Source: Nannochloropsis salina CCMP1776
Taxonomy: Eukaryota; Sar; Eustigmatophyceae; Eustigmatales; Monodopsidaceae
DNA: 23,450 bases
Reading direction: 5' to 3'
NCBI GenBank assembly: GCA_004565275.1
Contig: SDOX01000101.1
Coordinates: forward strand, 141,270 to 164,719
Below, piece by piece: positions 7,895 through 19,295 of the stretch. The notes below the pieces were generated by a model. It had not been told where the DNA came from, did no database searches, and saw only the letters and a program-made list of their open reading frames with translations. Position numbers and translations under genes: made by a program. Numbering within the stretch: the stretch's first letter is position 1; each line of letters begins with the position of its first letter.

Positions 7895-8620
7895 ATGGCG
7901 TGTAAGATGGCGTCCTGGCACATGATACTGGGACTCCTCGTGCTGATTCTCCTCTCCATATTTTCTGCAAGGGAGTTTGCCGGCGGGGAAGGTGGCTACA
8001 CAAAGAAAGATAGAACACTGTTCCAATCCAACCGCGGGAAAGTCCTCATCACTGGAACTGGGCGATCAGGAACAACATTTCTCATACAGCTTTTAACCTT
8101 CTTGGATCTGGATACTGGCTATCACAGGGAAACCTATTCCAAACATGTCTTTGGCATTTCTGGATCGGGCATGGAGCGGCCCATCAGCGCTCCACATAAA
8201 TTCCTAAAAAGTCCATTTTACATCAAAACGCTAGGACAAGATATGAAAGATTTCCTGCGGATGAACACAAGCATTCAAGCAGTAATTGTGCCGATACGAG
8301 ACTACACCGAATCAGCCGTGTCACGATTCCGTCTCGGGAATGGTGGTAAAGGAGGCCTGTGGAAAGCTTCTGATGTACCATCTCAAGAAAATATGTACTA
8401 TAAAATCATGGCTGAGTATCTCCTTTCAATGGTGGTATACGATATCAATACAATATTTATCGATTATAATCGCATGGTATCAGATCCTGTGTACCTATAT
8501 ACGAAGGTGAGACAAGTCTTACCCCACAACATATCAGTCGAGAAATTCACGGATGCATTTCAGGAGGCATCGGAGGTAAACGAAAGGTCTAAGGAAAAAA
8601 GAAAAAGTAAGGAGAATTGA
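7895..8620 (+). CDS. Golgi-type membrane-anchored sulfotransferase-like protein
   Basis: This intronless gene encodes 241 residues. A hydrophobic anchor at about residues 9-25 follows a short basic N-terminus, as in type II Golgi proteins. Residues 49-63 read KVLITGTGRSGTTFL, the 5'-phosphosulfate-binding P-loop of PAPS-dependent sulfotransferases. Residues 130-145 (VIVPIRDYTESAVSRF) fit the 3'-phosphate-binding strand and helix with Arg135 and Ser143. The C-terminus ends in a lysine-rich tail. At 241 residues it is slightly short for the family, and no catalytic His/Glu can be assigned with certainty. Expected role: transfer of sulfate from PAPS to a glycan in the Golgi lumen. ATG 7,895 is chosen because it precedes the anchor, and Met5 is an alternative. 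It shares orientation with the epimerase fusion 1.1 kb downstream. A generic P-loop protein of another kind is less likely. Confidence 0.75.
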   Translation: MACKMASWHMILGLLVLILLSIFSAREFAGGEGGYTKKDRTLFQSNRGKVLITGTGRSGTTFLIQLLTFLDLDTGYHRETYSKHVFGISGSGMERPISAPHKFLKSPFYIKTLGQDMKDFLRMNTSIQAVIVPIRDYTESAVSRFRLGNGGKGGLWKASDVPSQENMYYKIMAEYLLSMVVYDINTIFIDYNRMVSDPVYLYTKVRQVLPHNISVEKFTDAFQEASEVNERSKEKRKSKEN

Positions 8621-9751: not shown

Positions 9752-11812
9752 ATGCAGTGCCTGCTTTCTAAACATTCGGTCAAGATGACCTCGACCCAAC
9801 TGAAGCACATAGTCTTGGCTCTGAGTACCATCATTGCTTTCCTTGTGATGCAAAATCAGCTCCACGCTTTCCCAGACTCGCATCAATGGACATTCAACCA
9901 ACCGGTAACCCCGCTTGTAAACGAGAACTCGACGGTACTTATCACAGGAGTTGCAGGATTTATTGGATTCTCCGTGGCAAAGTTCCTTGCTGAGCACACC
10001 AAAGCAAAGGTTGTGGGGTTGGATAACTTCAATGATTACTATGATGTCGCACTTAAATACAAGAGAGCAGACTTGCTGAGTCACTGGAACACGGTCCAGG
10101 TCTTAGATGGCGACGTTTGTGACGCCCCCTTCTTGCGGAGTATTCTTGAAGATCACCATGTGACTCATGTACTTCATCTAGCTGCGCAAGCAGGGGTACG
10201 GTACTCATTGGAGCAGCCCTTAAGCTATGTCCGAAACAACATTCAATGTTTTGTAACGCTTCTAGAAGAGCTTCGTCGATTAAAAGGAAGCTCTAACGAT
10301 AGTGTGCTTCCTCGCTTTGTCTACGCGTCCTCTTCGAGTGTATATGGCGGGAATGTGGAAATACCTTTCAAAGAGACAGATGAGGTGGACAACCCCTCTA
10401 GTGTTTACGGCTTCTCAAAGCGAGCGAATGAGCTCTTAGCTCTTGTGTATTTCAAGGTCTTCGGCATTCCATCTGTTGGGCTCAGATTCTTCACTGTGTA
10501 TGGACCTTGGGGGAGACCTGATATGGCACCCTACAAGTTTACTGCTAGCATTTCCAAAGGGGAGAATATTACAGTTTACAACCAAGGAGACATGGCTCGA
10601 GATTTTACTTACATTGACGACATAGTTTCAGGAATATATGCCTCCTTAAGCTACCTTCCGAGTTCTTCGGAAGTTATCAACTTGGGGAAAAGTAAGCCAG
10701 AGCAGGTTCTGGATTTGGTAAAAATCATTGAGAAGGAGGTTGGTCGGACGGCACGGCTAAGCTTTGAGGATTCTGCAGTTGATTTACACGCGACCTATGC
10801 TTCAACGAGCAAGGCGAAAGGGCTCCTCTCTTATGCTCCTCAAGTAAACATGGATGAAGGGATCAAAAGATTTGTCGAATGGTACTTCCTGTATACAGGT
10901 GAACGTGCATTGTGCGCCAGCGAGTGCTCGGAGATGAGCCGTTGCATACCATCGCCATTCGATGATATGTTGACTCAATCCGTGGAAGCTACACACGGTT
11001 GCCAAACTGTAATTTACACTGCATTTTTCGGACCGACTAGATCGGGTCTACAGGACCCTCCTGCAGAGCTTGCCTGCAATGACGAGAGATGCTGCGCCGT
11101 TGCCTTCACCAATATTGAGATCCCGATGTCAGCGTCCCGCGATAGATGGAAGACAATTATGTGGAGCGGAGAAAATTTCCATTTTTGGGACAATCGGCGG
11201 CTGTCAAAGGTTGTGAAGCTTAACCCCACTCGCTTTTTTTCATCATCTGTGAAGCAAGCCATTTGGATTGATACGAAGCTGACATTGAAAGCAGACTATA
11301 ATTATCTTGTTGGGATGCTGAGTGACAACGAAAATCGTACAGCAAGCCTTGTGGCACTACAGAACCCATTTAGAAATAACCCTTTTGAGGCGAAAGTGGC
11401 CATCAAACAACGTAAAAGAAGTCGATGGAGTACCACCTACACCCTTAGAACCATGGACCATCAGGTGAGTGACTATCTTGATCTTCAAAAACGTCGCAAC
11501 ATCTCATTGGTAAACATGATCGACTCAGCAATATTGGCTCATGATCTAAAAAGCGAAGCTGGTCGCAAATTTCGCTGCGCGTGGTCGAAAGAATATTACC
11601 AAGGCTGTGATAGGGATCAGATCCCATTTACGGCTGTTCTTGCGAAAGAAGCCCATAATGCCGGATCAAATCTTGATCCCGATCAGGAGTGGTGCAAAGT
11701 GAGTAGTGACCCTGACTCGTACGTACGAATACTACCCAATACTTTGCACTGGAATAAAGGGTCCTCAGCTATTGCAAAATTTAGAGGGTCGTATGATAGG
11801 AGGCTTGTCTAA
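9752..11812 (+). CDS. Fusion: UDP-glucuronate 4-epimerase-like domain + TOD1/MUCI70 (DUF616) glycosyltransferase-like domain
   Basis: Intronless, 686 residues. A hydrophobic anchor at about 18-33 implies a type II Golgi protein; Met12 (9,785) is an equally good start. Residues 60-385 form a short-chain dehydrogenase/reductase sugar-nucleotide epimerase: GVAGFIG (66-72, NAD binding), DNFNDYYD (91-98), HLAAQAGVRYS (142-152), the SSSSVYG strand (193-199), catalytic Tyr219 and Lys223 in YGFSK, and RFFTVYGPWGRPDMA (245-259), the signature of UDP-glucuronate 4-epimerases that make UDP-galacturonate. A Cys-rich linker (388-399) leads to a second domain from about 416 (VIYTAFFG) to about 675, with AIWIDTKL (503-510) and GCDRDQIPF (618-626). 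These fit the TOD1/MUCI70 family, linked in plants to glucuronosyltransferase or pectin and mucilage functions. A single chain may thus make UDP-uronate and use it. All key epimerase residues are present; the acceptor and product are unknown. Confidence 0.85.
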   Translation: MQCLLSKHSVKMTSTQLKHIVLALSTIIAFLVMQNQLHAFPDSHQWTFNQPVTPLVNENSTVLITGVAGFIGFSVAKFLAEHTKAKVVGLDNFNDYYDVALKYKRADLLSHWNTVQVLDGDVCDAPFLRSILEDHHVTHVLHLAAQAGVRYSLEQPLSYVRNNIQCFVTLLEELRRLKGSSNDSVLPRFVYASSSSVYGGNVEIPFKETDEVDNPSSVYGFSKRANELLALVYFKVFGIPSVGLRFFTVYGPWGRPDMAPYKFTASISKGENITVYNQGDMARDFTYIDDIVSGIYASLSYLPSSSEVINLGKSKPEQVLDLVKIIEKEVGRTARLSFEDSAVDLHATYASTSKAKGLLSYAPQVNMDEGIKRFVEWYFLYTGERALCASECSEMSRCIPSPFDDMLTQSVEATHGCQTVIYTAFFGPTRSGLQDPPAELACNDERCCAVAFTNIEIPMSASRDRWKTIMWSGENFHFWDNRRLSKVVKLNPTRFFSSSVKQAIWIDTKLTLKADYNYLVGMLSDNENRTASLVALQNPFRNNPFEAKVAIKQRKRSRWSTTYTLRTMDHQVSDYLDLQKRRNISLVNMIDSAILAHDLKSEAGRKFRCAWSKEYYQGCDRDQIPFTAVLAKEAHNAGSNLDPDQEWCKVSSDPDSYVRILPNTLHWNKGSSAIAKFRGSYDRRLV

Positions 11813-18198: not shown

Positions 18199-19295
18199 AT
18201 GCGAGGTCGTGCATTTCTGGCCATAACAGTCTTTTGCTGTGGTCTGACTTACTTTAGTTTATACAGAGAAACGCCAATCTCCGTCGTTTTTGATCAGCAT
18301 ACGGAGCGACCAAAATGCGATCCAATCTTGCAAACAGCACTTCCTGACGCGGCAATGAACAAGTCTTCATGCTTATGGATTCAATTCACAACTTTGGCCG
18401 CTCAGGAAACCATTTAATAGAGCTTGCACAAGTCAATGAAGCGTTATCTCATTGCTCTGGGGTAGCGACCAGCTCTCCCGAGGTAAACAGGGATTCTGGT
18501 GTGGTTTTTCCGCCTGTTTTGATTGCAGCGCGAGGCGAAGTCAATTCGAGCATAGAGTCTTTAATGGAATCCGCTGCAATGTCATGCCGTGAAGTCAATT
18601 ACACCTGGGGTGGTGGAAAAGAACTTCTCCAACAATGCTCCAGTACTCCACTTTACAACGTTCATTCAGATATCAAAGCCCATGGGTCTGATTTAGTCAA
18701 TAGTGCATTGCTAAACGTATATCCAGACAGAAGGAGTTGGAACACAAACTTTGAAGATATGATGGTGATGTATTTTCGAGGAGGTGATATTTTGCAGGAG
18801 ACAGCACATGGTGGTTACAGCCAGGCGCCCTGCTCTCTCTTTCTTGAGGCGTTCAACTTTGTAAATGCCTCAAGACTCATGCTCGTCTTCGACCGAAACG
18901 CAACTTTACATCCATGTATTGATGTAGTCCGGAGTAAGATTCCAAATTCAACCTTTGTTTCGACGCCATGTGATAGCATTGGATGTCACATGACTTTACT
19001 TGGACGGGCATCCTACTTAGTGGTATCAGGAGTCACAACATTTGCGAGGGGAGCCCAGTCTCTGTTTCCCTCTAGGAGACGAGTAGTCTTTGAGTACTTT
19101 TGTACTCACAAGCCGCGCGAGGATGGAAACTCCACTATCAAGATCTGTGCCGCGGGCAATACCTCAGCCTTCAAACCATGGAGTTACACAGAGACCACCA
19201 AAATCCAGATGCTAACCACACGTAGCGAGCTTGTGCTGGGCAAGTATAATATGACGTCTATCCGTGATTTTCTGAACGGAAGTAGACCATATTAA
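18199..19295 (+). pseudogene. Fucosyltransferase-like Golgi glycosyltransferase split by one frame shift
   Basis: The first frame (18,199-18,417) starts ATG and encodes a type II signal anchor at about residues 5-21, then a stem. The second (18,369-19,295, 308 codons) carries the catalytic region. It opens with HNFGRSGNHLIELAQ, the glycine/asparagine-rich N-terminal loop of GT11-like and other GT-B fucosyltransferases. It continues with MYFRGGDIL (residues 134-142), equivalent to the HxRxGD GDP-fucose-binding motif, and ends with LLGRASYLVVSGVTTFARGA (210-229), the conserved A...LVxSxSTF block. Several Asn-x-Ser/Thr sites suit a luminal protein. The frames overlap out of phase, so an indel, real or a sequencing error, must lie around 18,360-18,390. 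No GT-AG intron there would keep the GRSGNH loop. If it is an assembly error the gene is intact, about 360 residues. The His before RxGD is replaced by Tyr/Phe, so the donor is uncertain. Confidence 0.65.

Follow-up and report, generated by a model that had tools for sequence, protein, structure and literature searches.

The 23,450-nucleotide stretch of Nannochloropsis salina CCMP1776 DNA analysed here (the window) contains, at positions 9752-11812 of the plus strand, one uninterrupted, intronless open reading frame of 686 codons in which two sugar-nucleotide enzymes are joined. Along the chain a membrane anchor is followed by a UDP-glucuronate 4-epimerase-type (UGAepi) domain and then by a domain of family PF04765 (TOD1/MUCI70), which is glycosyltransferase family GT116. 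An original prediction made from this DNA had placed both domains in one frame behind a single membrane anchor, and Pfam confirmed that each is present: Epimerase (PF01370) was matched at residues 62-312 with 164.7 bits, GDP_Man_Dehyd (PF16363) at residues 63-373 with 158.8 bits and TOD1_MUCI70 (PF04765) at residues 465-634 with 35.2 bits, above the curated cut-off of 21.4. The last match lies within residues 416-680, the part that had been assigned to TOD1/MUCI70, and the two motifs quoted for it are there (IWIDTK at residues 504-509, CDRDQ at residues 619-623). No break in the frame was found near position 10,900.

A hydrophobic segment at residues 15-33 (mean Kyte-Doolittle hydropathy 1.72) forms part of a helix spanning residues 14-38 in the AlphaFold2 (AF2) model. 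The segment starting at residue 62 is more hydrophobic (1.92) but belongs to the beginning of the NAD-binding fold, which leaves the N-terminal helix as the sole anchor candidate outside the folded domains, in line with the single anchor that had been proposed. Glycosylation sequons at N272 and N583 were kept in 6/6 rows of the fusion alignment and, together with the cysteines of the linker, would fit a type II protein that faces the secretory lumen. The coordinates of all features are given in Table 1.

Table 1. Features of the fusion gene in the window, with residue numbers of the 686-residue product.
Feature	Position	Strand	Basis or remark
Fusion gene, 686 aa, single open frame	9752..11812	+	Open reading frame, Pfam, paralogues, metagenomic fusions
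N-terminal membrane anchor, helix, residues 14-38; predicted type II topology	9791..9865	+	Hydropathy and AF2
Gene-conversion tract with paralogue L002	9931..11190	+	93-100% identity per 60 nt
UDP-glucuronate 4-epimerase-type short-chain dehydrogenase/reductase (SDR) domain, residues 62-373	9935..10870	+	Pfam; solved relatives by sequence and fold
S194-S195-S196, equivalent of carboxylate-binding T126-S127-S128 of B. cereus UGAepi	10331..10339	+	Alignment
Catalytic Y219xxxK223	10406..10420	+	Y219 aligned to Y149 of B. cereus UGAepi; both invariant in six fusion rows
T248...R255, equivalents of T178 and R185 of B. cereus UGAepi	10493..10516	+	Alignment; invariant in six fusion rows
Cysteine-rich linker, four invariant Cys (388, 392, 398, 417)	10913..11002	+	Kept in 6/6 fusion rows
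PF04765/GT116-type domain, GT-A-like predicted fold	10985..11809	+	Pfam 465-634; AF2; Foldseek and VIA-align
WIDTK, residues 505-509; D507 constant	11264..11278	+	18/18 bacterial, 6/6 fusion rows
N538 (comparison set H)	11363..11365	+	H in 18/18 bacterial and 5/5 other fusion rows; P0001 shares N
A547 (comparison set E)	11390..11392	+	Alignment
CDRDQ, residues 619-623; R621-D622-Q623 constant in comparison set	11606..11620	+	Alignment
P625 (comparison set S, RDQxS)	11624..11626	+	Outside the set: bacterial L229 G, viral L287 C

The same architecture recurs in other copies. Two further full-length fusions, 88% (L002) and 60% (L003) identical, were found on the same 164,719-base contig (C3) of the 26.5 Mb genome, together with a third further copy (L004) that is cut by a 100-N assembly gap, and a six-frame PF04765 search of the genome gave at least three matches, all in these fusions. 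Fusions from independent metagenome assemblies (P0001, P0002, P0003, P0006 and P0007) all carried both Pfam domains; P0001, P0002 and P0007 are incomplete at the N-terminus, and P0003, P0006 and P0007 share 44-46% identity with the window protein. When the transferase part was searched among 5.8 billion proteins, within the length range of the whole protein, these fusions alone were returned, by a method that reaches only relatives sharing exact words, so that distant or stand-alone relatives may exist. An alignment of the transferase part (A3), used against candidates of about 155-495 aa for stand-alone algal-type PF04765 proteins, returned only P0001 and P0004, the latter being the window's own protein, and scans with it gave 28 pattern matches in bacterial genomes and 72 in viral contigs, none of which was confirmed. 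With the whole fusion as query, at least 80 viral loci matched; the 80 kept align with the epimerase part only, up to query residue 402, except L187 (to residue 433). The genome also encodes a stand-alone UGAepi-like epimerase of 521 aa without a PF04765 domain (L005, G000:C55:381092-382096), which is 44% identical.

For the epimerase half the best solved relatives, by sequence and by fold, were Klebsiella pneumoniae 5u4q and Bacillus cereus UGAepi (6zl6/6zll). The NAD-binding glycine motif TGVAGFIG is present at residues 65-72, with one position varying among the fusions. UGAepi is reported to hold the substrate carboxylate with Thr126, Ser127, Ser128 and Thr178 and to use Arg185 for the product (PMC7984243, PMC12338863), and decarboxylases are reported to have Glu in place of Ser128 (PMC7984243). 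This set has its equivalents in the window copy, with Ser, not the decarboxylase Glu, at the third position and Ser for Thr at the first. The kept residues thus support a uronate epimerase and argue against a decarboxylase, and the epimerase half of the window copy looks intact; they would not separate UDP-glucuronate (UDP-GlcA) from other UDP-uronates as substrate.

The transferase half, modelled alone (residues 399-686), gave an AF2 pLDDT of 82.6 and pTM of 0.84, and its predicted GT-A-like fold matched nucleotide-sugar glycosyltransferases in Foldseek and VIA-align. A search of solved structures by sequence with this part gave 10 matches, all at E 0.28 or worse and taken as chance. PF04765 scores were higher in other fusions (62.6 bits in L003, 45.0 in L002 and 47.6 in P0003).

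PF04765 was also found in bacteria, at low frequency. It scored above cut-off in 1/26 genomes reached through epimerase loci, 3/398 in the phylum of Onishia (including that first one), 11/198 in the phylum of Cellulophaga, 10/194 in the cyanobacterial phylum and 21/382 in one class within the latter, the last two samples overlapping. From these, 38 stretches were fetched and the 37 with an open PF04765 frame were counted; L224 was dropped because of a stop inside the frame, L192, L215 and L257 were below the Pfam cut-off and left out of the flank set, and L268 was barely above it (22.6 bits). An epimerase partner was defined as a frame above 200 bits with a profile built from the fusion epimerases and L005. 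By this measure 10/37 loci had a UGAepi partner, nine of them directly 3' on the same strand and one fused in the opposite order, and no other frame above 200 bits was found elsewhere in the fetched flanks of the 37 loci. In the nine pairs the mechanically assigned start of the epimerase lies between -15 and +33 bases relative to the last sense codon of the PF04765 frame. The stretch of L241 ends 53 bases past its gene, with the 3' neighbour out of view. The cyanobacterial phylum, with 24 loci (four of which come from one genome, G714), supplied all ten partners, and these belong to non-photosynthetic relatives of cyanobacteria: a photosystem reaction-centre gene was found in 0/10 of the paired genomes, against 8 matches in a cyanobacterial control. 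Given that the PF04765 proteins of the ten pairs show only 33-75% mutual identity, the linkage has outlasted much divergence. Other bacterial PF04765 domains were seen in proteins of about 500-530 aa (L233-L237, L239, L241, L262 and L263, with L235 a GT2-PF04765 protein) and in a GT8-PF04765 protein (L245); the flanks fetched for these loci contained no UGAepi-type frame scoring over 200 bits.

The bacterial fusion (L240:8509-11028 in genome G800) is a single frame of 840 residues in which RgpF (88.3 bits on the N-terminal piece) is followed by PF04765 (47.3 bits) and an epimerase (346 bits with our own profile). RgpF was unlisted when the whole protein was scanned, and PF04765 in L266 and L267 was likewise missed in whole-protein hmmscan and found on domain pieces (39.9 and 33.5 bits); these misses were taken as HMMER filter losses. 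In two further loci (L258:4780-6555, minus strand, and L261:10109-11905, plus strand) an RgpF-UGAepi fusion lies directly downstream of the PF04765 gene (RgpF 122.2 and 124.6 bits). The resulting count of RgpF in three of the ten pairs is a lower bound, the others having been checked with profiles of these three proteins and through ten of 80 neighbouring frames. The ten scanned neighbours were mostly glycosyltransferases and other surface-polysaccharide genes. Since RgpF is named for rhamnan synthesis (rhamnan synthesis protein F), the trio of RgpF, PF04765 and UGAepi suggests a rhamnose-galacturonate polymer, and L240 is a possible one-chain rhamnose-galacturonate synthase module.

In an epimerase tree of 26 of the 80 bacterial epimerase loci and nine of the ten partners (L260, near L259, was left out), midpoint-rooted, without plant sequences and with bootstrap values not fully settled, the six algal-type fusions formed one clade (support 100/99), to which the nearest row was a Chlamydiae sequence (98/97). 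The bacterial partners, L240 included, formed a separate clade (100/100), and the stand-alone L005 of the alga fell beside the bacterial partners, outside both clades. Because their epimerases belong to different clades, the algal and bacterial fusions are best read as independent, and the GT116-UGAepi pairing probably arose at least twice. Known enzyme types occur here in a new, conserved arrangement that has apparently evolved more than once.

One Arabidopsis member of GT116, MUCI70/RGGAT1, is reported as a biochemically confirmed galacturonosyltransferase (PMC10576798, PMC11765706). Given this activity and the kept carboxylate residues, the natural reading is that UDP-galacturonate (UDP-GalA) is made and used in one chain. 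We therefore favour, with a probability of about 0.68, the reading that the fusions act as membrane-anchored enzymes which face the lumen and both make and use UDP-GalA. The N-terminal domain, with bound NAD, would invert C4 of UDP-GlcA to give UDP-GalA, and the C-terminal domain, tethered by the cysteine-rich linker, would transfer the galacturonate to a secreted acidic polysaccharide; the enzyme would act in the Golgi lumen and supply its donor locally. On the computational side, it is supported by the joining of the two domains and the conservation of that join, by the specificity residues kept in the epimerase, by a transferase half predicted to adopt a GT-A-like fold, and by bacteria that pair the same two enzymes using epimerases of another clade. 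The original interpretation, in which a single polypeptide both produces a uronic-acid donor and consumes it, is thus supported in part by the carboxylate residues, the galacturonosyltransferase activity in GT116 and the bacterial pairings, and loses ground for the window copy itself, in which the transferase half looks altered; the channelling that it also implied would be hypothetical.

Several observations weigh against make-and-use of UDP-GalA. Arabidopsis TOD1, also a PF04765 protein, has been published as an alkaline ceramidase (PMC4309442), and the present comparisons were made without plant GT116 or plant GAE sequences. The pairing is not universal: 14/24 loci of the cyanobacterial phylum and all 13 PF04765 loci of Bacteroidota and Pseudomonadota had no UGAepi in the fetched flanks. 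Being mutually related, the ten pairs do not count as ten independent events. Epimerase-family frames of 26-145 bits occur elsewhere in eight stretches (L221, L223, L225, L242, L243, L261, L266 and L268), and that in L225 is cut by the stretch end at 133.7 bits, so the 200-bit line matters; a frame cut by the L242/L243 border reached 129.3 bits when joined, which is below the line. PF04765-like proteins are common on viral contigs (IMG/VR), where the bacterial PF04765 alignment gave 428 confirmed stretches; of the best 80 kept (L269-L348), none is flanked within up to 6 kb by an epimerase frame scoring over 150 bits. The fusion rows have K509, against N in 15/18 bacterial rows, and donor or metal binding may therefore differ from that of bacterial PF04765. 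Finally, the window copy has lost three of nine positions (H538N, E547A and S625P) that were constant in an alignment (A7) of 18 bacterial rows with L002, L003, P0003, P0006 and P0007. The 18 bacterial rows had been chosen from the 37 open frames so as to be diverse, and the nine positions are a proxy for competence chosen in this analysis, with no published definition, which the five other fusions keep 9/9 by construction.

These three losses, at sites kept in 18/18 bacterial and 5/5 other fusion rows, raise the possibility that the window copy has by now become little more than an epimerase, with a transferase half that has lost its function or drifted to another role, while the sister copies are bifunctional. 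Among the changes polarised over residues 465-672, 16 were window-only and 11 L002-only, and 3/16 of the former fell on the nine constant sites (hypergeometric P 0.024). The comparison with L002 points the same way. Identity rises sharply at about position 9,931 and drops sharply at about 11,190, with values outside the tract of 63-73% immediately upstream in the gene and 70-88% across 11191-11670. Synonymous divergence (dS) was as low as 0.039 for the epimerase and 0.10 for the linker stretch, against 0.48 for the transferase part and 0.58 at the N-terminus. The low epimerase dS and the sharp boundaries indicate that gene conversion with L002 homogenises the epimerase and linker and spares the transferase core, and on this view it is conversion that keeps the epimerase. 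However, the ratio of nonsynonymous to synonymous divergence (dN/dS) was 0.05 in the linker stretch and 0.31 in the transferase part, which indicates that the frame is under purifying selection and that the transferase part diverges under constraint, not freely. This half also models well and keeps K489, D507, W611, R621, D622 and Q623, and all three changes persist in P0001, which is 93% identical to the window protein. Moreover, wider sampling shows some variation at the nine sites: bacterial L229 has G for S, L234 has E for D622 and viral L287 has C for S, several viral rows depart at these positions or have no evident H motif, and of the 22 of 80 viral loci used in a structure alignment (four more were left out for stops) a simple pattern search found no clear H...[YF]xE in about 8. 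With its weight lowered for that variation, we regard loss of the transferase as a less likely explanation. The transferase half of the window copy appears altered, and its activity may be low, shifted in specificity or lost altogether; with three residues lost here and kept in the sister copies, L002, L003 or the metagenomic fusions better represent a working enzyme.

Co-targeting without coupling is a less probable alternative, in which the epimerase feeds a general UDP-GalA pool and the transferase domain uses another donor. The GT116 donor is reported for one Arabidopsis member only, 27/37 bacterial PF04765 loci have no nearby UGAepi-type frame above 200 bits, and the K509 difference would also agree with it, but two fusions of opposite order with epimerases of different clades, together with nine adjacent pairs, are difficult to account for unless the substrate is shared. 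Still more doubtful is an epimerase with a different UDP-uronate or UDP-sugar as its substrate, e.g. UDP-N-acetylglucosaminuronate (UDP-GlcNAcA) or UDP-xylose (UDP-Xyl), whose product the transferase would use. All NCBIfam models that matched this half (GalE, RmlB, TviC and others) were below their own cut-offs and so name no specificity, whereas the carboxylate-holding residues and the best solved relatives point to a UGAepi. That the PF04765 part is a ceramidase, as yeast-expressed TOD1 is reported to hydrolyse ceramide (PMC4309442), is very improbable given a predicted fold that matches nucleotide-sugar glycosyltransferases, the fusion to a sugar-nucleotide epimerase and bacterial PF04765 domains fused to or adjoining glycosyltransferases. 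An artefact of assembly or gene modelling joining two genes, which the N gaps of the contig (one of them cutting L004) might suggest, is refuted as far as sequence allows by two intact paralogues with the same join, the independent metagenomic fusions and purifying selection across the linker.

The source genome gave 34 light-harvesting-type matches and is by inference that of a photosynthetic eukaryote. Contig C3 (L012-L028) contains many copia-type frames (Pfam on three frames). Its origin as a contaminant was considered and found unlikely, as the gag protein of its copia-type element matches copies on nine other contigs (C1, C9, C49, C71, C72, C75, C76, C80 and C94). The contig also carries many single-frame genes with an N-terminal hydrophobic segment, some of them duplicated (e.g. 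C3:45311-46222, 60816-62348, 67422-68243 and 108040-109008). By Pfam, its single-frame genes include GT61, xyloglucan-fucosyltransferase-like (XG_FTase-like), sulfotransferase and methyltransferase genes, and several have no Pfam match. Within the window, a 241-aa single frame at 7895-8620 (plus strand) has an N-terminal hydrophobic segment and sulfotransferase similarity below the Pfam cut-off, and a 308-aa frame at 18369-19295 (plus strand), without a Pfam match, has a YFRGGD motif reminiscent of fucosyltransferases. From this gene content the region looks as if it serves to decorate an acidic secreted polysaccharide, one that may be fucosylated and sulfated.

Fusion to, and adjacency with, a presumed UDP-GalA-making enzyme in both an alga and bacteria provide a testable donor prediction for GT116, and the three paralogues on one contig offer a built-in comparison between apparently intact and altered transferase halves. 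We tentatively extend this, at less than even odds, to the proposal that GT116 and UGAepi form a recurrent, independently evolved galacturonate make-and-use module, which with RgpF (L240, L258 and L261) would make up a compact apparatus for building a rhamnose-galacturonate polymer like the plant rhamnogalacturonan I (RG-I) backbone; the algal Golgi-type fusion would be its eukaryotic counterpart, and GT116 would be UDP-GalA-dependent well outside land plants. If the donor prediction is right, RG-I-type galacturonate polymers would be synthesised in lineages where this was unexpected, and a natural single-chain tool would exist that makes its own UDP-GalA from UDP-GlcA.

No GT116-epimerase fusion was named in the titles or abstract openings of the literature surveyed. 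The nearest known systems compare as follows. The epimerase half shares with B. cereus UGAepi and with 5u4q, deposited as a dehydratase or epimerase, the SDR fold, the Y/K catalytic pair, the carboxylate-binding set and the product-holding Arg; unlike B. cereus UGAepi it has Ser for Thr126 and is anchored and fused to a PF04765 domain. Plant GAE is a UDP-glucuronic acid 4-epimerase of the same kind. With Arabidopsis MUCI70/RGGAT1 and TOD1 the transferase half shares the Pfam domain above cut-off, D507, the RDQ motif and the predicted GT-A-like fold, and its N-terminal anchor is as reported for TOD1; it differs from the Arabidopsis GT116 proteins in being fused to an epimerase and, in the window copy, in lacking three positions constant in the main comparison set. 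The nine bacterial gene pairs combine the same two enzymes, with the epimerase directly 3' of the transferase, but as two genes. The bacterial protein L240 likewise holds both enzymes in one chain but places the transferase first, carries the extra N-terminal RgpF domain and draws its epimerase from another clade.

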